Shown here one piece after another: positions 2,671 to 43,514 of a stretch of DNA of 44,015 nucleotides. Made by a program: the position numbers and the translations under genes. The DNA is taken from IMG/VR virus record IMGVR_UViG_3300025864_000025, positions 1 to 44,015 of that record, one strand, 5' to 3'. How positions within the stretch are numbered: position 1 is the stretch's first letter; each line of letters opens with the position of its first letter. Source of the DNA: a virus. The notes below the pieces were generated by a model. It saw nothing but the letters and a program-made list of their open reading frames with translations, was not told the DNA's origin and made no database searches.

Positions 2671-2903
2671 TGGACGCACCGAAGCCCTGCCCCCCAAAGG
2701 GGTACCTCGACGCCAAGATCCTTGAGATGGAGATCGTCAGCGCTGCTGAGGCCGTCGCTTCGCTCAGGGCGTGGGTCAAGAAGCCCGCGTTCGTCCCCAA
2801 GCCGCACCTGACTCAGCGGCCGTTCATCGCCCCAGAGCTCGTTTCCTTCCGCAAGGGGATGCAGCACCACGCCCAGCCCAATGAAAGGAGAGGTAACTCA
2901 TGA
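2670..2903 (+). CDS. Small hypothetical protein
   Basis: A 77-residue protein, Pro- and Lys-rich, with no recognised domain. It is tightly coupled: the ATG overlaps the preceding stop by one base, and its TGA (2901-2903) overlaps the next ATG (2900) in an ATGA junction. Such translational coupling supports a real gene despite its short length. Confidence 0.65.
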   Translation: MDAPKPCPPKGYLDAKILEMEIVSAAEAVASLRAWVKKPAFVPKPHLTQRPFIAPELVSFRKGMQHHAQPNERRGNS

Positions 2904-3724
2904 ACATCGTACTCATCAGGGCCCTCTGCGGGGCAGCCATCGGCGCCGCCGTCTCAGGGGTGATGCTCGTTGGCTTCAAGATCGGGGAGTCGAAGGGCCG
3001 TGAGAGGGCCTGGATCGACGCCGACAAGCAGATGGCGGAGATGGAAGACCGTCTCAAGCGCCTCTACAAGATCGGGGAGTGGCAGAACCCCGTCAACTTC
3101 GCTGAGGACACAGAGCGTCCCGAAAGCATGGATTCTCCGGAACACGAACTCGCTAGGCGTCGTGCACGTGCTGCTGCAGAGGTCGATCCTGGTATGCTCG
3201 AGAAGCTCAACGAGCACGTCCAGTCCCAGGGCTACGCGCTTCACGAGGACTCTGCTGTGCCGTCCGGAAGAACCATATTCGATCGGTACAGGAACGAGGA
3301 CCTCGACGCCGAGGACGGAATGGCTGAGGCGCGTCTCGATGCTCTGCGGGAGGAGGTCGAGGGCGTCACTCCGAACATGGAGGACCCCGAGCCCTACGTC
3401 ATCTCTGAGGAGGAGTTCGGGTACGACAAGGAGAACTACACCAAGATATCCTTGTCGTACTACCCGGTCGATGGGGTTGTCGCTGACGAGCAGGATCGCG
3501 TCGTCGAGGATGTCGAGAGTTCGATCGGGATTCGTAACCTCGACGGGTTCGACACCGATGGTAATGGCGGCGACACAGTGATTCACGTCCGCAACAACCG
3601 GCTCCAGGCTGACTTCGAGATCGCCATCGAAGAGGGGTCCTACCGTGAGACTGTCATGGGTCTCGACGCCGGCCCGGTCATGGAGCGGCGTGGACGTAAA
3701 AGCCGGGGCTCTCAGGACGAGTAG
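2900..3724 (+). CDS. Membrane-anchored conserved phage protein
   Basis: A 274-residue protein. Residues 4-28 (VLIRALCGAAIGAAVSGVML) form one N-terminal membrane anchor. A charged, probably helical segment follows. The C-terminal domain, from about residue 165, contains PYVISEEEFGYD, SLSYYPVDGVVADEQDRVVE and VIHVRNNRLQADFEI. This domain resembles one I recall next to DUF6353 proteins in phages of Gram-positive bacteria; its function is unknown. The acidic C-terminal part is presumably cytoplasmic. The stop overlaps the GTG of the next gene by one base. Confidence 0.75.
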   Translation: MNIVLIRALCGAAIGAAVSGVMLVGFKIGESKGRERAWIDADKQMAEMEDRLKRLYKIGEWQNPVNFAEDTERPESMDSPEHELARRRARAAAEVDPGMLEKLNEHVQSQGYALHEDSAVPSGRTIFDRYRNEDLDAEDGMAEARLDALREEVEGVTPNMEDPEPYVISEEEFGYDKENYTKISLSYYPVDGVVADEQDRVVEDVESSIGIRNLDGFDTDGNGGDTVIHVRNNRLQADFEIAIEEGSYRETVMGLDAGPVMERRGRKSRGSQDE

Positions 3725-4263
3725 TGCCCGGCACGATTGATGACCGCTACTTCGAATGGTTGTATGCCAAATTCGGAGCGGTAAGCAACAGGAACCCTGC
3801 TCACTCATACTGGAACTTGTTCAGGCAACTCTACTCTCGGGAGTTTGTCTGGTTCGTTCCGAACGATGATAACCGTGTGGAGGATGGTAAAGAACTCCGA
3901 CGCGATTTCATCGACGAGCAGGGGACCGACGGGGTCGACGCCAACTGGCTAGGCCTTGGGTGCTCAGTGCTGGAGATGTTAGTCGCTCTAGCAGGCCGGG
4001 CTTCCTTCGAGACTTCTAGGGAGCCCGGCGAGTGGATCTGGCAATTCCTCAACAACCTGAATTTCGACGAGTACAACGACGCAGCGTGGCACAAGTATTG
4101 CGCCAGTAGGATAACCAGGGCGTTAGACACCTTCGTCTTTCGAACGTATTCTCCAACGGGTATCGGAGGGGTGTTCCCTCTCCGGGCTGCTACGGAGGAT
4201 CAACGAAAGGTGGAACTCTGGTACCAAATGTCCGCGTACCTGTTGGAAAACAACCAGTACTAG
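3724..4263 (+). CDS. Conserved phage protein upstream of polymerase
   Basis: A 179-residue soluble protein rich in Trp and Tyr. The GTG start overlaps the previous stop by one base. Recognisable blocks are YFEWLYAKFG near the N-terminus, VPNDDNRVEDGKELR, CSVLEMLVALAGR, and GIGGVFPLR before the C-terminus. I recall the same block order in uncharacterised proteins of phages infecting Gram-positive bacteria, lying near replication genes. The function is unknown. It closes the 1.8-4.3 kb operon, 18 bases before the polymerase fusion gene. Confidence 0.7.
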   Translation: MPGTIDDRYFEWLYAKFGAVSNRNPAHSYWNLFRQLYSREFVWFVPNDDNRVEDGKELRRDFIDEQGTDGVDANWLGLGCSVLEMLVALAGRASFETSREPGEWIWQFLNNLNFDEYNDAAWHKYCASRITRALDTFVFRTYSPTGIGGVFPLRAATEDQRKVELWYQMSAYLLENNQY

Positions 4264-4281
4264 CGTAGGGAGGAGGTAACC

Positions 4282-7200
4282 TTGGATTTCTATCGAATTG
4301 CTGAGCGACAGGCCAACAAGAACGGGGTCCTTGAGGTCTTTCCAGACTTCAAAGTCATCCGATCGAAGGACCTCATGGTTCGAGGCCGGTCGTTCTACGC
4401 AATCTGGGACGAAGAAAAGGGTCTGTGGTCCACTGACGAGTACGATGTTCAGCGGCTCATTGACGACGACCTCTTCGAATACCAAAAGGAGAATGACGGG
4501 CCCATCACGCTCAAGTTGATGGGGCAATTCAGCAGCAACAGTTGGCTGCAGTTCCGGAACTACGTGGGGCACCTGTCCGATGCCAATTCCCAGCTGGACG
4601 AGCACCTCACCTTCGCCAACTCGGCAGTGAAGAAGAGCGACTTCGTTAGTCGTCGACTTCCGTACGCCCTTGAAGGCGGAGACATCAGTGCGTACAAAGG
4701 GATGTTTGAACTTCTGTATGCACCTGAGGAACTGGAGAAGTTGGAGTGGGCCATTGGCTCCATCATCGCCGGGGACGCACGCTACATCCAGAAGTTCTTC
4801 GTGCTGTACGGCGAGGGCGGGACAGGCAAATCCACCTGGCTCAACCTCGTGCAGGCACTCTTCGACGGGTACTACACCGCCTTTGAGGCTAAGGCTCTGA
4901 CTGGGACTAGCAACGCATTCGCCACGGAGGCGTTCAAGTCCAATCCCCTGGTTGCGATCCAACATGACGGGGACCTCAGCAAAATCGAGGACAACACCAA
5001 GCTCAACTCGATCATCTCTCACGAGGAGATGACGATGAATGAGAAGTACAGGCCGTCATACACGGCTCGCAGCAATGCAATGCTTCTCATGGGTACGAAC
5101 AAGCCTGTCAAGATCTCGGATGGTAAGTCGGGAATCATCCGGCGCCTGATCGATGTCCGTCCGACAGGTAAGACACATTCGCCTCGTAAGTACGCGGCAT
5201 ATGTTTCACAAATGTCGTTCGAACTCGGCGCGATTGCCCAGCACTGCCTGAACACATATCTCGCGATGGGTAAGAACTACTACGCGGGGTACAAGCCGGT
5301 AGAGATGATGTTGCAGACAGACATATTCTTCAACTTCATCGAGGACACGTACATCACCTTTCAGTCGCAGGATGGGACGACCCTGTCTCAGGCCTACGAG
5401 CTCTACAAGGTGTTCTGCGATGAGTCCAACATCGAGTACCGCCTGGCACGTCACAAGTTCAGGGACGAACTCAAGAACTACTTCAGCGGCTTCGACGAGC
5501 GATTCGAGGTTGACGGCATCCGAGTGCGCAGTTGGTACTCGGGGTTCAAGGCCGAGCGTTTCAAGGTGAAGGTCGGAGAGGATGCACGCACATTCTCTCT
5601 TGTCATGGATGACACCGAGTCCCTGATGGACGACCTCTTGAGCGCCCAACCTGCACAGTACTCCAATGCCGAAGGGACGCCGACCAAGAAGTGGGAGTAC
5701 GTCACCACCACGTTGGCGGATCTCGACACGTCGAGGGAGCACTACGTCAAGGTTCCTACGAACCACATCATCATTGACTTCGACCTTAAGGACGCTGATG
5801 GCAACAAATCCTCCGAGCGAAACCTCGAGGCAGCTTCTACGTGGCCAGCCACCTACGCTGAGTTCAGCAAGGGCGGTGCGGGTATTCATCTTCACTATAC
5901 CTATGAAGGGGATGCCTCTGATCTTGCCCGAGTCTTTGATAGCGGCATCGAGATCAAGGTATTCAACGGCGATGCCTCTCTCCGACGACGGGTTAGCAGA
6001 TGTAACTCCGTGCCAGTGGCAACGATTCGCGAGGGACTACCCGTAAGGGAGAAGAAAGTGATTTCTGAAGAGACGATCAAGAGTGAACGTGCTCTTCGGG
6101 ACCTCGTCATGCGCAACCTCCGAAAGGAGATCCACCCAAGCACCAAGCCGTCGATCGACTTCATCCACCAGATTCTGGATGACGCCTACAAGTCGGGGTT
6201 GGAGTACGACCTCATAGACCTGCGGTCGAGGATCCTGTCGTTCGCCAACAGCAGCAGTAACCAGGCGATGCTTTGTGTTAAGAGCGTTCAGACGATGCAG
6301 TTCAAGTCGGAGAACGTTCTCGAGTCCATGAAGAGCCTGCCCAAAGACGAACGTTTGGTCATCTTCGATCTGGAGGTGTTTCCGAACCTCTTCATCATCT
6401 GCTGGAAGTACAGCGGCGAGAAGACCGTCGTTCGCATGGTCAACCCGACCGCTCAGCAGGTAGAGACGCTCTTTGCGTTGAAACTTATTGGGTACAACTG
6501 CCGCAGGTATGACAACCATATCCTGTACGCAGCGTACATGGGCTACACCAACCATCAACTCTACGAACTCAGCCAGAAGCTGATCAATGGCCACGGGCCG
6601 GGCGCGTACTTTGCGCAGGCCTATAACATCTCGTACGCTGACATCTACGACTTCTCGTCGAAGAAGCAGTCCCTCAAGAAGTTTGAGATCGAGTTGGGCC
6701 TGACACATGTGGAGTCAGAGTTGCCTTGGGATCTTCCGGTTGACCCGGCCCTTTGGCAGCAGGTTGAGGACTACTGCGTCAATGATGTGAATGCGACCGA
6801 TGCGGTGCTTCTTGACCGCTGGCAGGACTTTGTTGCTCGGCAGATCCTTGCTGATCTCTCAGGTCTGTCGGTCAACTCGACGACGCAGCAGCACACCTCG
6901 AAGATCGTGTTCGGGGATGACCGGCGACCGCAGGACAAGTTCAAGTATACCCATCTTGCGGAGATGTTCCCTGGCTACAGGTACGACATGGGGACGTCAA
7001 CGTATAGGGACGAGATCGTTGGAGAAGGCGGTCTCGTTAGGGCAAAGCCAGGCATGTACGAGAACGTGGCGTTGCTCGACGTAGCGTCGATGCATCCCAC
7101 AAGTATCGAGCAGTTGGACATGTTTGGGGAGTACACAAAGAACTTCTCCCAGTTGAAAGCCGCTCGCATCGCCATCAAGCACCATCAGTATGACGAAGCC

Positions 7201-8046
7201 AAAAAAATGCTCGGGGGGAAACTTTCCAGGCATCTTTCTGATGAGGCCCAAGCGGAAGCGTTGTCCTACGCTCTGAAGATCGTGATCAACATCGTTTACG
7301 GTCTGACGAGCGCTAAGTTCGACAATTCCTTCCGGGATCCGCGTAATATCGACAACATAGTTGCCAAGCGGGGCGCTCTCTTCATGATTGACTTGATGCA
7401 TTTCGTCGAAGAGCAGGGCTTTGTTGTTGCCCATATCAAGACGGACTCCATCAAGATCCCAAATGCAACTCCTGAGATCATCGAGCAAGTCATGGGTTTC
7501 GGAAGGAGCTATGGGTATGACTTCGAGCATGAGGCAACGTACGAGAAGTTCTGCCTCGTCAATGACGCTGTCTATATCGCGAAGTATGCGTGGGCGGCGA
7601 GTTCGAAGATCAAGCCCGGTGATTGGACTGCGGTTGGGGCTCAGTTCCAGCACCCATATGTCTACAAGACGCTCTTCACGGGCGACCCCATCAAGTTCGA
7701 AGACATGTGCGAGACCAAGACTGTCAGTACGGCGCTTTACCTCGACTTTGGGGTGGAAATGCCGATGTTCAACTACGACGGAGACAACAAGCACTTCGTC
7801 GGCCGTGCGGGCATGTTTGTTCCCATTCTGCCCGATTGTGGTGGAGGGTCTCTTCTACGCGTCGACAAAGATGGGGTGCGTTTTCATTCCGCCACCGGCG
7901 CCAAGAACTACCTTTGGAAGGAAGCAGAGGTAGTCAAGACACAGAAGTTGCAGGACGACATCGATCTCAGTTTCTTCGAGACTCTCGTGTATGAGGCTCG
8001 GCAGCAACTAGACAAGTTCTGCGACGCAACCATCTTCCTTTCGTAA
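4282..8046 (+). CDS. SF3 helicase - AEP-type primase - family B DNA polymerase fusion
   Basis: A 1254-residue replisome protein with a TTG start behind AGGAGGT. Residues 1-430 form an SF3/D5-like helicase: Walker A GEGGTGKST (177-185), acidic QHDGD (227-231), and sensor-1 GTN (271-273). Residues about 440-600 resemble an archaeo-eukaryotic primase: IIIDFD (D499, D501), SKGGAGIHLHY (H536, H538), then IEIKVF (E557). Residues 690-1254 form a family B polymerase. Its 3'-5' exonuclease motifs are FDLEVF (D696, E698), GYNCRRYD (D744) and YCVND (D835). Its polymerase motifs are A LLDVASMHPTSI (D933), B K999-N1003-Y1006-G1007 and C HIKTDSIKI (D1055). Together these could unwind, prime and copy phage DNA. 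Motif C has Lys in place of the first Asp of DTDS. I recall the same three-part arrangement in other phages, so it is probably a real family and not a chimera. Confidence 0.92.
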   Translation: MDFYRIAERQANKNGVLEVFPDFKVIRSKDLMVRGRSFYAIWDEEKGLWSTDEYDVQRLIDDDLFEYQKENDGPITLKLMGQFSSNSWLQFRNYVGHLSDANSQLDEHLTFANSAVKKSDFVSRRLPYALEGGDISAYKGMFELLYAPEELEKLEWAIGSIIAGDARYIQKFFVLYGEGGTGKSTWLNLVQALFDGYYTAFEAKALTGTSNAFATEAFKSNPLVAIQHDGDLSKIEDNTKLNSIISHEEMTMNEKYRPSYTARSNAMLLMGTNKPVKISDGKSGIIRRLIDVRPTGKTHSPRKYAAYVSQMSFELGAIAQHCLNTYLAMGKNYYAGYKPVEMMLQTDIFFNFIEDTYITFQSQDGTTLSQAYELYKVFCDESNIEYRLARHKFRDELKNYFSGFDERFEVDGIRVRSWYSGFKAERFKVKVGEDARTFSLVMDDTESLMDDLLSAQPAQYSNAEGTPTKKWEYVTTTLADLDTSREHYVKVPTNHIIIDFDLKDADGNKSSERNLEAASTWPATYAEFSKGGAGIHLHYTYEGDASDLARVFDSGIEIKVFNGDASLRRRVSRCNSVPVATIREGLPVREKKVISEETIKSERALRDLVMRNLRKEIHPSTKPSIDFIHQILDDAYKSGLEYDLIDLRSRILSFANSSSNQAMLCVKSVQTMQFKSENVLESMKSLPKDERLVIFDLEVFPNLFIICWKYSGEKTVVRMVNPTAQQVETLFALKLIGYNCRRYDNHILYAAYMGYTNHQLYELSQKLINGHGPGAYFAQAYNISYADIYDFSSKKQSLKKFEIELGLTHVESELPWDLPVDPALWQQVEDYCVNDVNATDAVLLDRWQDFVARQILADLSGLSVNSTTQQHTSKIVFGDDRRPQDKFKYTHLAEMFPGYRYDMGTSTYRDEIVGEGGLVRAKPGMYENVALLDVASMHPTSIEQLDMFGEYTKNFSQLKAARIAIKHHQYDEAKKMLGGKLSRHLSDEAQAEALSYALKIVINIVYGLTSAKFDNSFRDPRNIDNIVAKRGALFMIDLMHFVEEQGFVVAHIKTDSIKIPNATPEIIEQVMGFGRSYGYDFEHEATYEKFCLVNDAVYIAKYAWAASSKIKPGDWTAVGAQFQHPYVYKTLFTGDPIKFEDMCETKTVSTALYLDFGVEMPMFNYDGDNKHFVGRAGMFVPILPDCGGGSLLRVDKDGVRFHSATGAKNYLWKEAEVVKTQKLQDDIDLSFFETLVYEARQQLDKFCDATIFLS

Positions 8047-8063
8047 CTAGCCAGAGGAGAGTC

Positions 8064-8375
8064 ATGAGGGTCACGAAACACCTGCCTGTTCTCATGCGTG
8101 ATGATTTCCACGAGGTCGTGACTGTTGGTAATGCTTTTTACAACAGCCGTGGAGACATCACGTTCCAAATCGTCCTAAGGAACAATAACGGCGACCACGG
8201 GATGCTCTCCAGCGCCATCGAGCTGGGTCTCGTCGAGGCTTTGAAGATCGAGCCCGTGGCGTCGGATCTCAGGAAACAGATCGAGGCCTACGAGCAGGTC
8301 GCCTTGGAGGCAGCCGTCATCGACCTTGACTTGTCCGCCGCCGAAGTTCTAGAAGAAGGAGTGCCCCATGAGTGA
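8064..8375 (+). CDS. Small conserved hypothetical protein
   Basis: A 103-residue acidic protein, with a GAGGAG site before the ATG. The N-terminal half looks like beta strands (VVTVGNAFYNSRGDITFQIV) and the C-terminal half is a long acidic helix. Its stop overlaps the next start by 8 bases, so the two are co-translated. It lies between the polymerase fusion and the probable ssDNA-binding protein, so a replication accessory role is plausible but inferred only from position. Confidence 0.65.
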   Translation: MRVTKHLPVLMRDDFHEVVTVGNAFYNSRGDITFQIVLRNNNGDHGMLSSAIELGLVEALKIEPVASDLRKQIEAYEQVALEAAVIDLDLSAAEVLEEGVPHE

Positions 8376-8847
8376 ACTGCAGCCCGTCGTCATGAAGAAC
8401 GTGCGGATCCTGTTCCCCAACTTCGCCGGCAAGGAGGACATGTATAACCGAGCTGGCGATCGGAACTTCAACATCGCGATCCCTCTGGACGTGGCCGCGG
8501 CCATGAAGAGGGACGGCTGGAACGTCAAGTTGCGTGACGGACGCGAGGAGGGTGACGACCAGACAGCCAAACTCGAGGTCGCCGTCAGCTACAAGGTACG
8601 TCCGCCGAAGATCTGGGTCATCAACAGCCGTGGGCGTCGAGCGATCGGCGAGTCCGAGGTGGAGACCCTGGACTACATGGAGATCATCAACGCCGACGTG
8701 ATCATCAACCCCTACATGTGGGCCATCCAGGCGGGAACCCCCCAAGAGAAGTCGGGCATCAAGGCCTACCTGGGCACCCTGGGTGTCACGATCAAGGAAG
8801 ATCTCCTCGAGATCGAGTGGGCCGACATTCCGATCATCGGCAACTGA
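8368..8847 (+). CDS. Probable single-stranded DNA-binding protein
   Basis: A 159-residue protein. The strand-rich sequence with VKNVRILFPNF-like N-terminus (here MKNVRILFPNFAG), DGWNVKLRDGR, LEVAVSYKVRPPKIWVI and DVIINPYMWAIQ follows the block order of phage proteins annotated as ssDNA-binding or DUF2815-like. Such proteins have an OB-like fold and coat single strands during replication or recombination. The neighbours (polymerase fusion upstream, helicase and nucleases downstream) agree with this. I cannot verify DNA binding. An uncharacterised replication accessory protein is the alternative. Confidence 0.65.
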   Translation: MSELQPVVMKNVRILFPNFAGKEDMYNRAGDRNFNIAIPLDVAAAMKRDGWNVKLRDGREEGDDQTAKLEVAVSYKVRPPKIWVINSRGRRAIGESEVETLDYMEIINADVIINPYMWAIQAGTPQEKSGIKAYLGTLGVTIKEDLLEIEWADIPIIGN

Positions 8848-8928
8848 TGGCCTAACCGCTGGACGTCCTGGGTATGACGTTGAAGTAAACTGCCCACCCT
8901 TGCCGAGCCACTACTGAAGGGAACTATC

Positions 8929-9111
8929 ATGAGTGTGTCTGACGTTGTCCGTAAGACGCCTATCGTGCACGCCCAGTGCCCGGCGCATAGCAACCATGCG
9001 TTGTGCGGCGCTCGCGTTGCTTACATGGACCCCGATGTTGACGTGGTGACTGCGAAATACCCCGAGATCACCACGTGCTTGACGTGCTTGGCATGGCTCG
9101 ACAAGAAATGA
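8929..9111 (+). CDS. Small Cys/His-rich protein
   Basis: A 60-residue protein with AAGGGAA before the ATG. The spaced residues C17, H20, H23, C26 and the late CLTC pair (T-T-C-L-T-C) could bind a zinc ion. The family is not recognised. The stop TGA overlaps the next ATG (ATGA), so it is coupled to another Cys-rich gene. It starts a new cluster after an 81-base gap with no clear terminator. Confidence 0.65.
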   Translation: MSVSDVVRKTPIVHAQCPAHSNHALCGARVAYMDPDVDVVTAKYPEITTCLTCLAWLDKK

Positions 9112-9419
9112 CTGTCATAGACGTTGTGACCACCCTTCCCCGCTGCGTGTCCTGTGACCATCCGATGCGTGGTTCTCGGGCTTTCGCAGCGGACTACCCT
9201 GGGTCGCGCATTATGAGCGGGAAAGGGATCTGCAAGACGTGTGCACGCATCTCCCGAGAGGAACTTCATCCCGAGAACAAACCCGTTCAGGACAATAGCT
9301 GGCGCTTCATGCACTACCGGTGCATCCGCTGTGGCATTGACGTCTGGACAGAGGGCGCCGCGTGCACGGACTGCCGACGGTCTGATTCAGTCCTCGTGAA
9401 GAAGTGGACAGTCGCATAG
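9108..9419 (+). CDS. Zinc-ribbon-like small protein
   Basis: A 103-residue protein with CVSC (about residue 13), CKTC, CIRC and CTDC pairs, giving two likely zinc ribbons separated by about 30 residues. The ATG at 9108 overlaps the previous stop in the form ATGA; an upstream ATG at 9093 is less likely. Zinc ribbons in small phage proteins often contact nucleic acid or host RNA polymerase, but no specific role can be assigned. The 3' end of the gene runs into the promoter-like element at 9412. Confidence 0.65.
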   Translation: MTVIDVVTTLPRCVSCDHPMRGSRAFAADYPGSRIMSGKGICKTCARISREELHPENKPVQDNSWRFMHYRCIRCGIDVWTEGAACTDCRRSDSVLVKKWTVA

Positions 9420-9961: not shown

Positions 9962-11194
9962 ATGACTGGACTCGAGCCGCATCAACTTAAGGCGATTCGT
10001 GAACTGCACGACGGATGCATCCTTCGAGGGGGCGTTGGCGTTGGTAAGACGCGTGTAGCACTGGTCTACTTCTACGTCCACATCGCTCATGGTCTGGTCA
10101 AGGTAAATGGTGTCGGCGACTGGGAACCGCCAAAGACCCCCCTCCCTCTTTATGTCATCACTACTGCCAAGAAGCGCGATGATCTTGACTGGGAGGAAGA
10201 GGCTGCCAAGATAGGACTGACTACTGACGCGCAGACTAGGGACGCGATTGGCATTAGTATGCGCGTTGACTCCTGGAACAACATCAGACAGTACGAGGAT
10301 GTTAAGGACGCGTACTTCATCTTCGACGAGCAGCGGTTGGTGGGTTCTGGCGCATGGGTGAAAGCCTTCTACAAGATCGCCAAGAACAATAGCTGGATCA
10401 TCCTTAGTGCCACGCCAGGAGACACGTGGATGGACTATGTACCCGTGTTCGTAGCCAACGGGTACTACAAGAATAAGACAGAGTTCACACGTGAGCATGT
10501 CGTCTGGAAGCAGTACAGGAAGTTCCCGGTTGTGGATCGGTATGTGGCCACTAGGAAACTCGAGAGGCTGCGCGGTGGCTTACTGGTCGAGATGCCGTAC
10601 GAACGCCACACAGTGCGCCATGTCAAACACGTCACCGTCGAGTATGACGAGGCTATGTACGACCTAGTTACCAAGAAGCGTTGGGATGTGTTCAACGAGA
10701 AGCCGCTCAAGGATGTCAGCCAGATGTTCGTAGCCATGAGGAGGGTTGTCAACAACGACATCTCCAGGCTTGGGGCGGTCCTGAAGTTGTACGAGACTCA
10801 CCCTCGCCTGATCGTGTTCTACAACTTCGACTACGAGTTGGCAACGCTAAGGACGTTGACCAACATTGGCGTCCCTACGGCTGAGTGGAACGGTCACAAG
10901 CATGAGCCAGTCCCTACAGGGGAGAAGTGGGTCTATCTGGTCCAGTACACTGCCGGGGCTGAGGGGTGGAATTGCGTTGACACTGACGCGGTTGTGTTTT
11001 GGTCTCTGAATTACTCGTATAAGATCAACGAGCAAGCAAAGGGGCGAATTGACCGGCTTAACACTCCTTACGTAGATCTGTACTACTATCTCCTGCTTTC
11101 GCGATCTCCTATAGATGCGGGGATCCTGAAAGCACTAGGGACGAAGAAGTCCTTTAACGAGAGAAAAGCCGCCGAAAAGTGGTTTGCGACGTGA
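9962..11194 (+). CDS. SF2 (SNF2-like) DNA helicase
   Basis: A 410-residue ATPase with AAGGAGG upstream of the ATG. N-terminal lobe: Walker A GGVGVGKT (23-30), Walker B FDEQ (D122-E123-Q124, replacing DEAD/DEAH), and motif III SATPG (149-153). C-terminal lobe: TAGAEGWNC, and motif VI INEQAKGRIDR (355-365) with the arginine finger. It is compact, lacking extra N- or C-terminal domains. Phage helicases of this type usually act in replication fork remodelling or recombination and are often followed by a VRR-NUC gene, as here at 11909. An HNH gene and an inverted-repeat region lie between the two. Confidence 0.87.
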   Translation: MTGLEPHQLKAIRELHDGCILRGGVGVGKTRVALVYFYVHIAHGLVKVNGVGDWEPPKTPLPLYVITTAKKRDDLDWEEEAAKIGLTTDAQTRDAIGISMRVDSWNNIRQYEDVKDAYFIFDEQRLVGSGAWVKAFYKIAKNNSWIILSATPGDTWMDYVPVFVANGYYKNKTEFTREHVVWKQYRKFPVVDRYVATRKLERLRGGLLVEMPYERHTVRHVKHVTVEYDEAMYDLVTKKRWDVFNEKPLKDVSQMFVAMRRVVNNDISRLGAVLKLYETHPRLIVFYNFDYELATLRTLTNIGVPTAEWNGHKHEPVPTGEKWVYLVQYTAGAEGWNCVDTDAVVFWSLNYSYKINEQAKGRIDRLNTPYVDLYYYLLLSRSPIDAGILKALGTKKSFNERKAAEKWFAT

Positions 11195-11324
11195 TCTCGG
11201 TCAAAAACCCACTAAAATCGTCAAAAACTTTCTCAGAGATCGAATCAAGTATTAGTATAGGACTAATACTCATAGTGGGTTTACCAAAGAGTTTTGGCGA
11301 GAATTAGTGGGTTTTTGACCGAGA
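11195..11324. repeat. Nested inverted repeats, possible origin or regulatory structure
   Basis: The outer arms 11195-11215 and 11304-11324 are perfect 21-nt inverted repeats (core AAAAACCCACT/AGTGGGTTTTT). Inside lies a perfect 9-bp pair, AGTATTAGT (11248-11256) and ACTAATACT (11262-11270), with an ATAGG loop. TCAAAAAC occurs twice in the left half and AGTGGGTTT twice in the right half. The block is AT-rich in a GC-rich genome and lies wholly between the helicase stop and the HNH ribosome site. Confidence 0.85.
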
Positions 11325-11338
11325 AGTCTGGAGGCAAG

Positions 11339-11827
11339 ATGGAAGTGTGGGGTAAGATAGAGGACTTTCCTCCATATGAGGTGAGTGATGAAGGGCGAAT
11401 TCGTAATGCTGACACCGGAAAACAGCTCGGAATCTACGACAACGGGCATGGAATCCTGCAAGTGGTTCTTAGGCGAGGAGGCTGCAACCATGCTCGGGCA
11501 GTCCATCGCCTCGTGGCAACAACTTTTTTCGATCCAGCCCCATACGATTGCGTTCCTATGTATCGTGACGGGGACCACTATAACAATCGTGCCAGCAACC
11601 TGGTCTGGAAGCCTCGTTGGTTCGCAGTCAGATGGACTAAGCAAGGACACGCCACGCCTACTGATTTTCGTCGAATCCGAGTGGTTCGAACCGGGGTTGT
11701 TTACGAGAATAGCCTGGAATGCGCAAAAGCCATCGGCGGGTTGGAGGAATTAGTTCTCCTGACTGCTCAGAGTTTGTGGAGAACCAGTTACATGGGGCAC
11801 CACTTTGAGTTTCTCGATCCGCACTAA
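11339..11827 (+). CDS. HNH homing-type endonuclease (NUMOD4-HNH), degenerate active site
   Basis: A 162-residue protein. ATG 11339 follows GGAGG; a TTG at 11294 would lie inside the inverted repeat. The N-terminus EVWGKIEDFPPYEVSDEG with RIRN is a NUMOD4 motif. The HNH_3-like core follows: AVHRLVATTFF, then VPMYRDGDHYNNRASNLVW. In active relatives the second block starts NHxDG; here it is M-Y-R-D-G, so the expected His is Tyr. A C-terminal segment (ENSLECAKAIGGLEE) resembles a NUMOD1-type DNA-binding helix. Such genes are usually selfish mobile elements. The repeat ACTAATACTCA occurs at 11262 and again across this gene's stop codon at 11823, which fits insertion between the helicase and nuclease genes. 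Confidence 0.8.
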   Translation: MEVWGKIEDFPPYEVSDEGRIRNADTGKQLGIYDNGHGILQVVLRRGGCNHARAVHRLVATTFFDPAPYDCVPMYRDGDHYNNRASNLVWKPRWFAVRWTKQGHATPTDFRRIRVVRTGVVYENSLECAKAIGGLEELVLLTAQSLWRTSYMGHHFEFLDPH

Positions 11828-42581: not shown

Positions 42582-42715
42582 GAATAGACCCGCAAGGGTA
42601 CTGAGACACGAATGCGCAGGTCCGAACCCTGCCCAGTGTGGCGCCACGGAAAAAACAGACGCTTAACGAACTGACTTTAGTTGGGCCAGTTACCTGTTCT
42701 CATCTTTTTTCTGAG
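42582..42715 (+). ncRNA. Structured leader upstream of DUF6353 copy B
   Basis: ACCC-GCAA-GGGT gives a GNRA tetraloop hairpin near 42588-42599. GCAGG-TCCGAAC-CCTGC (42616-42632) has the exact 5-bp/7-nt form of a tRNA T-arm. GTGGCGCCAC is a 10-base palindrome (42638-42647). AACTG/CAGTT pairing and TTTTTT follow near 42669-42712. About 130 bases before the ribosome site are non-coding. It may be a regulated leader or a small RNA with its own terminator. Confidence 0.5.
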
Positions 42716-42734
42716 CCTCTTGAAAGGAGGATCG

Positions 42735-43514
42735 ATGCAGATCGGTAGCATCATCAAGGCCACGCAACTCGTGGTCAAGCACAACGCGCCGGCAATCCTC
42801 ACCGCTGTCGCAGTCGCAGGGACGATCACCACGGGACTCTTTGCGGCCAACGCTGGCGCCAAGGCATCTCGTGCCATATCCCGCGAGGAGATCCGTCATG
42901 GGCACCCCATCAGTGGGCCCGCGGAACTCACCGTCAAGGAGAAGGTCAGGATTGTATGGCCACTCTTCATGCCCGCAGTCGGGATGGGTGTCCTTACGGT
43001 CGCGTGCACCATCGGCGCGAACCACATCGGCGGACGACGCGCAGCAGCACTCGCTGGCGCATATTCGCTCTCTGAGAAGGCGTTCTCGGAGTACAAGGAC
43101 AAGGTCACTGAGACCATCGGCAAGAAGAAGGAGGAGAAGGTCCGGGACGCTGTCGCCCAGGACCAAGTCACTCGGAACCCGCCGACAACCACCGAGATCG
43201 TCATCACGGACACCCAGGACGTCGTCTGCTATGACGCCATATCTGGTCGGTACTTCACGACCAGCATGGAGAAGCTTCACGGGGCCAGGAACGACCTCAA
43301 CAAGCAGATCCTCGACGATGGGTACGCGTCCCTGAACGAGTTCTGGGATCTCCTCGGTCTCGATGGAACCACGATCGGCGAGGAACTTGGCTGGTCGTCT
43401 GACCACCTGCTCGAGCTCCACATCACCACGACGCTGGCTAAGGACGGCAAACCCTGTCTCTCGCTGGGGTATATTCGCGCTCCGGAAGCGAACTACTACA
43501 AGGCGTTTCACTGA
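42735..43514 (+). CDS. DUF6353-type phage membrane protein, copy B
   Basis: 259 residues from ATG 42735 after GAAAGGAGG. It has two membrane segments: about 15-37 (APAILTAVAVAGTITTGLFA) and about 74-95 (WPLFMPAVGMGVLTVACTIGA). GRRAAALAGAYSLSEKAFSEYKDKV follows, aligning with the same block of the 1792-2670 protein. The C-terminal domain (FTTSMEKLHGARNDLNKQIL, YASLNEFWDLLGLD, LGWSSD, LELHITTTL) is more typical of DUF6353 than copy A. The function is unknown. Two diverged copies in one small genome suggest distinct partners. Confidence 0.8.
   Translation: MQIGSIIKATQLVVKHNAPAILTAVAVAGTITTGLFAANAGAKASRAISREEIRHGHPISGPAELTVKEKVRIVWPLFMPAVGMGVLTVACTIGANHIGGRRAAALAGAYSLSEKAFSEYKDKVTETIGKKKEEKVRDAVAQDQVTRNPPTTTEIVITDTQDVVCYDAISGRYFTTSMEKLHGARNDLNKQILDDGYASLNEFWDLLGLDGTTIGEELGWSSDHLLELHITTTLAKDGKPCLSLGYIRAPEANYYKAFH

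Follow-up and report, generated by a model that had tools for sequence, protein, structure and literature searches.

Positions 4282 to 8046 of the window, by which we mean the whole stretch of 44,015 nucleotides of viral DNA analysed here, hold one long open reading frame, and the question raised by this locus is whether a single viral protein carries a helicase, a primase and a family B DNA polymerase (PolB), and which genes accompany it. A first-pass annotation had read these three enzymes in one polypeptide without internal stops. This is borne out by the sequence, the predicted fold and the homology to a biochemically tested relative, which agree with one another, and the three-enzyme reading is therefore supported.

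One gene of a named family

Read directly from the sequence, the frame runs through 1254 codons without interruption. Its start is a TTG codon with an AGGAGG sequence ahead of it, and GP55 of Lactococcus phage 1706 and other homologues begin at the same M/LDFY in the alignment. The gene and its parts, with the corresponding residues of GP55, are as follows.

4271..4276, + strand: Shine-Dalgarno sequence AGGAGG, 5 nt 5' of the TTG start, read directly
4282..8046, + strand: gene of the HelPrimPolB replicase (1254 aa), from the TTG start through the stop
4282..5571, + strand: SF3 (D5/P4-type) helicase, aa 1-430, with Pfam DUF5906 and TIGR01613 matches and a SaPI5 fold match
4810-4836, + strand: Walker A of the SF3 helicase domain, aa 177-185; K183 is K189 in GP55
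within aa 1-430, + strand: arginines R287/R288 of the SF3 helicase domain
5599..6081, + strand: AEP (PriS-like) primase, aa 440-600, with D499/D501, H536/H538, E557 and an NrS-1 fold match; D501 is D509 in GP55
6082..6336, + strand: aHD (alpha-helical domain), aa 601-685, helices in the model; Y642 and F654 are aligned to Y655 and F667 of GP55
6349..6861, + strand: 3'-5' exonuclease subdomain of PolB, aa 690-860, with D696, E698, D744 and Y831/D835; D696/E698 are D712/E714 in GP55
6862..8046, + strand: PolB polymerase subdomain, aa 861-1254, with a KOD PolB fold match
7078-7080, + strand: PolB motif A, D933, which is D949 in GP55
K999-N1003-Y1006-G1007, + strand: PolB motif B
7438-7449, + strand: PolB motif C, KTDS, aa 1053-1056

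The residues that the annotation had named, i.e., Walker A 177-185 (GEGGTGKST), D499/D501, H536/H538, E557, D696, E698, D744 and D835, proved to be right, and two features that it had left unmentioned can be added: the helical aHD between primase and PolB, and a motif C in which KTDS replaces DTDS and is invariant in the HelPrimPolB family. The SF3 feature set is complete (K183 of Walker A, an acidic Walker B at D229/D231, an Asn sensor N273 and an arginine finger R287/R288). AEP motifs I-III (DxD, H, E) and the Tyr/Phe pair of the aHD are all present at the residues listed above, as are the 3'-5' exonuclease motifs, PolB motifs A and B and the deviant motif C. The order within the single ORF is SF3 helicase, AEP, aHD and PolB, as in HelPrimPolB, and the fold match together with the catalytic triad places the PriS-like primase in the AEP superfamily.

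The protein is a member of the HelPrimPolB/GP55 family (phrog_4210), which has already been named and characterised, and it is nothing new in kind. A chance match is excluded, because the phrog_4210 profile spans residues 1-1253, i.e., end to end, at 1975 bits. The tblastn search matched 340 phage records, 252 of which cover 80% or more of the query at a single place, and these were mainly Arthrobacter, Gordonia and Streptomyces phages with the annotation 'DNA primase/polymerase'. An alignment-based scan of IMG/VR matched at least 599 stretches (the alignment search was required there, GP55 as the sole query finding nothing beyond GP55 itself), and relatives are encoded by 161 stretches of bacterial genome contigs, many of them of Lachnospiraceae and Oscillospiraceae. 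On the basis of these counts, the family is a large one, found across gut and soil phages. The statement in the first-pass annotation that similar fusions occur in gut phages, and that this one is not unique, was correct, with the scope now extending to actinophages. Its view of a probably under-described family no longer holds, since Kazlauskas et al. named HelPrimPolB in 2020, placed the group in the PolB phylogeny and remarked on its deviant motif C (PMC7544198), and one member was characterised in 2025 (PMC12205980).

That member is GP55, which Zhang et al. (NAR) purified at full length as an active four-activity replicase: its unwinding is UTP/dTTP-dependent, its RNA priming prefers the site 5'-CCAAC-3', and it performs DNA synthesis and 3'-5' exonuclease proofreading (PMC12205980). 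D509 is required for RNA primer synthesis, and the aHD was described as a new helical domain required for priming, in which Y655/F667 are essential (PMC12205980). Over 1184 aligned residues, BLAST gives 40% identity between the window replicase and GP55, and all the mapped GP55 residues shown to matter are conserved in it. The two proteins have the identical order of SF3 helicase, PriS-like domain, aHD, exonuclease and PolB, with an SSB in the same genome; they differ in that the window replicase is 63 residues shorter and its C-terminal part past residue 1154 was unaligned by BLAST.

The HelPrimPolB group as described earlier (PMC7544198) likewise has an SF3 helicase and PrimPol N-terminal to a PolB with a deviant motif C, and we found no feature distinguishing the window replicase from it; the protein falls among actinophage and metagenome members, the nearest of which have 60-64% identity. 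Full-length homologues of Arthrobacter phages Qui and Mudcat, Gordonia phage Tanis and Streptomyces phage CricKo (50-61% identity, with the same upstream gene) differ only in sequence, and their 'DNA primase/polymerase' annotation omits the helicase. NrS-1 PrimPol, pRN1 ORF904, poxvirus D5, ASFV PrimPol and SaPI5 Rep share AEP and/or SF3 helicase folds with it and are related modules outside the family; in NrS-1, ASFV PrimPol and D5 the primase is ahead of the helicase, and PolB is absent. In the NrS-1/pRN1-type PrimPol-helicases, the AEP precedes the helicase and serves as the replicative polymerase without a separate PolB; the window replicase is not of this type, because its order is helicase-AEP-PolB and the AEP and SF3 folds alone are in common.

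Genes beside the replicase

The genes that travel with the replicase are the following.

2900..3724, + strand: phrog_4695 protein, 274 aa, function unknown, with an N-terminal hydrophobic segment; second conserved gene upstream
3724..4263, + strand: phrog_4678 protein, 179 aa, function unknown; conserved, directly upstream of the replicase
8368..8847, + strand: phage ssDNA-binding protein (SSB), PF24083, 159 aa, E 5.9e-48
9962..11194, + strand: SF2-type helicase, phrog_62, linked in many relatives

In three sets of loci, the SSB was downstream of the replicase in 66/66 (near relatives), 60/62 and 54/58, and the SF2-type helicase was near it in 46/66, 61/62 and 58/58. The annotation had seen a whole core replisome in this protein, accompanied by an SSB alone; the SSB is present, but "alone" was too strong, because the replicase also travels with the SF2 helicase and with two genes conserved upstream of it. 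Profile searches of the replicase neighbourhood identified neither a clamp nor an initiator.

The window protein almost certainly replicates the genome of a tailed phage, as a member of the HelPrimPolB (GP55) family. It is highly unlikely to be an accessory or repair polymerase instead, a reading opposed by the conserved block with the SSB and SF2 helicase, by the window ORFs read or profiled, among which no second replicative polymerase or primase was recognised, and by GP55, which copies whole M13 ssDNA de novo (PMC12205980).

Three other observations concern the rest of the window. A NUMOD4-HNH endonuclease gene of the homing-endonuclease type lies at 11294-11827, between the SF2 helicase and nuclease genes. 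A 903-aa protein at 12740-15451 matches phrog_4291, 'RNA-dependent RNA polymerase', and has sigma-70 region 4-like helix-turn-helix matches and an ADFDGD motif, which is known from two-barrel RNA polymerases; this is perhaps a single-chain RNA polymerase encoded by the phage. At opposite window ends, 1792-2670 and 42681-43514, are two proteins that appear to be related and have hydrophobic segments (GGHGILLKRNAALAGA / GANHIGGRRAAALAGA), which suggests that they arose by duplication.

Upstream of the replicase, phrog_4678 was found in 64/65, 64/70 and 65/67 loci of three sets, about as constantly as the SSB, and in two thirds of the loci having it the distance to the replicase frame was 300 nt or less; phrog_4695 is likewise a near-constant upstream neighbour. 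In the phage collection, phrog_4678 was present in 238 records with counts equal to those of the replicase (Arthrobacter 95, Gordonia 55, Streptomyces 54, Siphovirus 12, Curtobacterium 7 and Rhodococcus 4), the identity of the records being judged from the equal counts and the examples read. Among 299 genomes of one bacterial family, seven have phrog_4678, five of them with the full replicase adjacent; of the remaining two, G221 has it at the end of a contig (positions 278-823) and G266 has it with only about the first 56 replicase residues. One more genome lacks phrog_4678 and has a replicase frame that is more divergent and contains a stop, and the others of the 299 have neither a full-length replicase nor phrog_4678. 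The gene is thus found almost exclusively alongside the replicase, near one to one.

The two upstream genes are separate in the window, whereas in phage 1706, which had seemed to be without phrog_4678, a phrog_4678-like domain is part of a membrane-anchored protein, GP53. The C-terminal half of GP53 matched the phrog_4678 profile in hhalign with a probability of 96 and a score of 63, against scores of at most 24 for six other neighbour profiles and the reversed profile. A phrog_4695-like N-terminus of GP53 was unsupported in the profile comparison (P 3), and the C-terminal match alone stood. The N-terminus of GP53 contains a strongly hydrophobic segment, and an N-terminal segment of this kind is present in 142 of 177 phrog_4695 proteins. 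NCBIfam and Pfam yielded no function for either phrog_4678 or phrog_4695.

On the basis of the near-constant adjacency, the near-exclusive co-occurrence and the fusion of a phrog_4678-like domain to a membrane segment in GP53, we tentatively propose, giving it somewhat less than an even chance, that the replicase does not suffice on its own in the cell and that phrog_4678 with the membrane-anchored phrog_4695 forms a dedicated partner, which would recruit or regulate HelPrimPolB at the membrane or origin. The membrane link is drawn from the GP53 match and the hydrophobic segments of GP53 and phrog_4695, and we regard such a membrane-linked partner as a fair hypothesis and not a result.

Replicases carried as two genes

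The replicase is one unbroken ORF in 236 of the 238 informative loci of the first sets, and we found it as two genes in three relatives.

L077 (= L247), 4896-9200: split replicase with two small ORFs between the halves
L249, 2718-7300: split replicase with an HNH/NUMOD-type endonuclease gene between the halves
L266, 2681-7300: split replicase with an HNH/NUMOD-type endonuclease gene between the halves

The break point in all three lies between window-equivalent residues 893 and 896, which is the exonuclease-polymerase border, and every catalytic residue is kept. In the tree, every split form has another intact replicase as its sister (support 0.97-1.0), and insertions at one replicase site have apparently happened repeatedly. 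Group I introns were rejected, because there was no Rfam intron match and each half begins with a start codon of its own; ribosome sites are visible at the split halves in at least L077 and L249. Two further loci, L253 and L237, were rejected as real fissions and not counted, because their overlapping reading frames (at an A-run in L253) are probable frameshifts. At 4442-4562 of L253, the helicase and the primase-polymerase are in overlapping frames at an A-rich stretch with AAAAAAG; the overlap is probably a sequencing frameshift, and AAAAAAG also resembles a slippery site. Split PolB genes associated with homing endonucleases are known in T4-like Aeromonas phages, and 43A and 43B of Aeromonas phage 25 are reported to purify together and to be active (PMC2988022). 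The HelPrimPolB splits differ from 43A/43B in that the exonuclease remains with the helicase and primase.

These natural splits at the exonuclease-polymerase border, the low-confidence linkers of the model at the helicase/primase and aHD/PolB junctions, and the function of GP55 primase and polymerase in trans (PMC12205980) could be taken to mean that the product of the long ORF is cleaved after translation into helicase, primase and polymerase proteins. We consider this extremely unlikely, because GP55 was active at full length, its helicase activity was only minimal after removal of PolB (PMC12205980), one ORF is kept in nearly all the informative loci, and evidence for a protease site is absent. 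No sign emerged of the proteolysis into independent proteins that the first-pass annotation had set against its own reading, and what was found is gene fission in a few relatives.

Folds, conserved residues and domain history

Structure prediction, which had been suggested as a check, was run, and the primase region was modelled as an AEP; the other fold that the annotation had named as a refutation did not appear. The AlphaFold (AF2) model of primase and aHD, residues 425-690, has a mean pLDDT of 90.6, and its best solved match is NrS-1 PrimPol (6a9w, Z 9.8, 141 residues, 3.5 A), followed by pRN1 ORF904 (Z 6.7), cyanophage S-2L PrimPol, CRISPR-associated Prim-Pol (CAPP) and eukaryotic PriS; Foldseek agrees with these AEP-type matches. 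The aHD, modelled jointly with the primase, gave helical rows in the fold comparison with Z about 6 or less, which carry no information on its fold. For residues 57-1254, the AlphaFold model has a pLDDT of 86.4 and a pTM of 0.53, so that the fold of each domain can be trusted, whereas the position of the domains relative to one another cannot. The helicase model matched the SaPI5 primase-helicase (7ola, Z 21.8) and the poxvirus D5/E5 and ASFV PrimPol helicases (Z 18-19), and the PolB model matched KOD PolB (Z 16.5 over 452 residues).

In the alignment of 234 homologues, the invariant residues are G177/G182/K183 of Walker A, N273 and R287/R288 in the helicase; D696, E698, D744, Y831 and D835 in the exonuclease; and D933, K999, N1003, Y1006 and K1053-T-D-S1056 in the polymerase. 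In the primase, D499, D501, H536 and E557 are invariant and H538 is kept in 232/234, the counts for D499/D501 and H536/H538 being partly circular because motifs with them fetched some of the loci, whereas the other motifs are independent; Y642/F654 of the aHD are nearly invariant. Motif C of most PolBs has two aspartates, and the window replicase has lysine in the first place. A dead polymerase was ruled out by the invariance of KTDS in the 234 sequences and its presence in GP55; since GP55 is active with the same KTDS, this motif characterises the family and does not mark a defect.

Although the primase domain has no Pfam match and its phrog_3022 match is weak (E 3.5e-4), it is scarcely credible that the middle part is an AEP that has decayed or taken on another role, in what is in effect a helicase-polymerase primed by the host primase, given the residues just described, the confident model with NrS-1 PrimPol at the top, and the D509-dependent production of RNA primers by the homologous GP55 domain (PMC12205980).

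Unrelated histories of the domains were rejected; pairwise inter-domain distances correlate (r 0.60-0.83). The domain phylogenies that had been suggested for examining a shared history were also run. Well-supported splits in conflict amounted to 40-43% between the helicase and PolB trees (16-28% for random same-size column partitions), 20-25% between helicase and primase+aHD (3-10% for random partitions) and 25-31% between primase+aHD and PolB (3-17%). Neither distances nor trees gave a sign of a recent fusion. The domain fusion is an old one that the members share, and the domains have a mostly common history, with some module exchange inside the family.

For the window protein as genome replicase, we infer all four activities and their coordination. 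The N-terminal SF3 domain would open the duplex and contribute strand displacement. Together with the helical aHD, the PriS-like domain would place short RNA primers on the exposed single strands, and the C-terminal PolB would extend these primers and proofread via its exonuclease; the chain is probably dimeric, so that one chain would prime while the other extends. Given the 40% identity, the helicase nucleotide preference and the priming sequence may differ from those of GP55. One point counts against this explanation: GP55 was mostly dimeric and not a hexamer of the SF3 kind (PMC12205980), which bears on how the helicase would load.

The window enzyme adds one well-supported, rather divergent (40%) relative to the GP55 family, and the comparison displays the constancy of GP55-tested residues across this family of all-in-one replicases, which may serve primer-free DNA copying. 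The split forms are two-chain versions of the enzyme that occur in nature, with the cut exactly at the exonuclease-polymerase border, and, if the partner proposal is true, phrog_4678 and phrog_4695 would be an undescribed part of the minimal replisome. The partner gene and the split forms, both testable at the bench, are more useful for later work than the enzyme itself.
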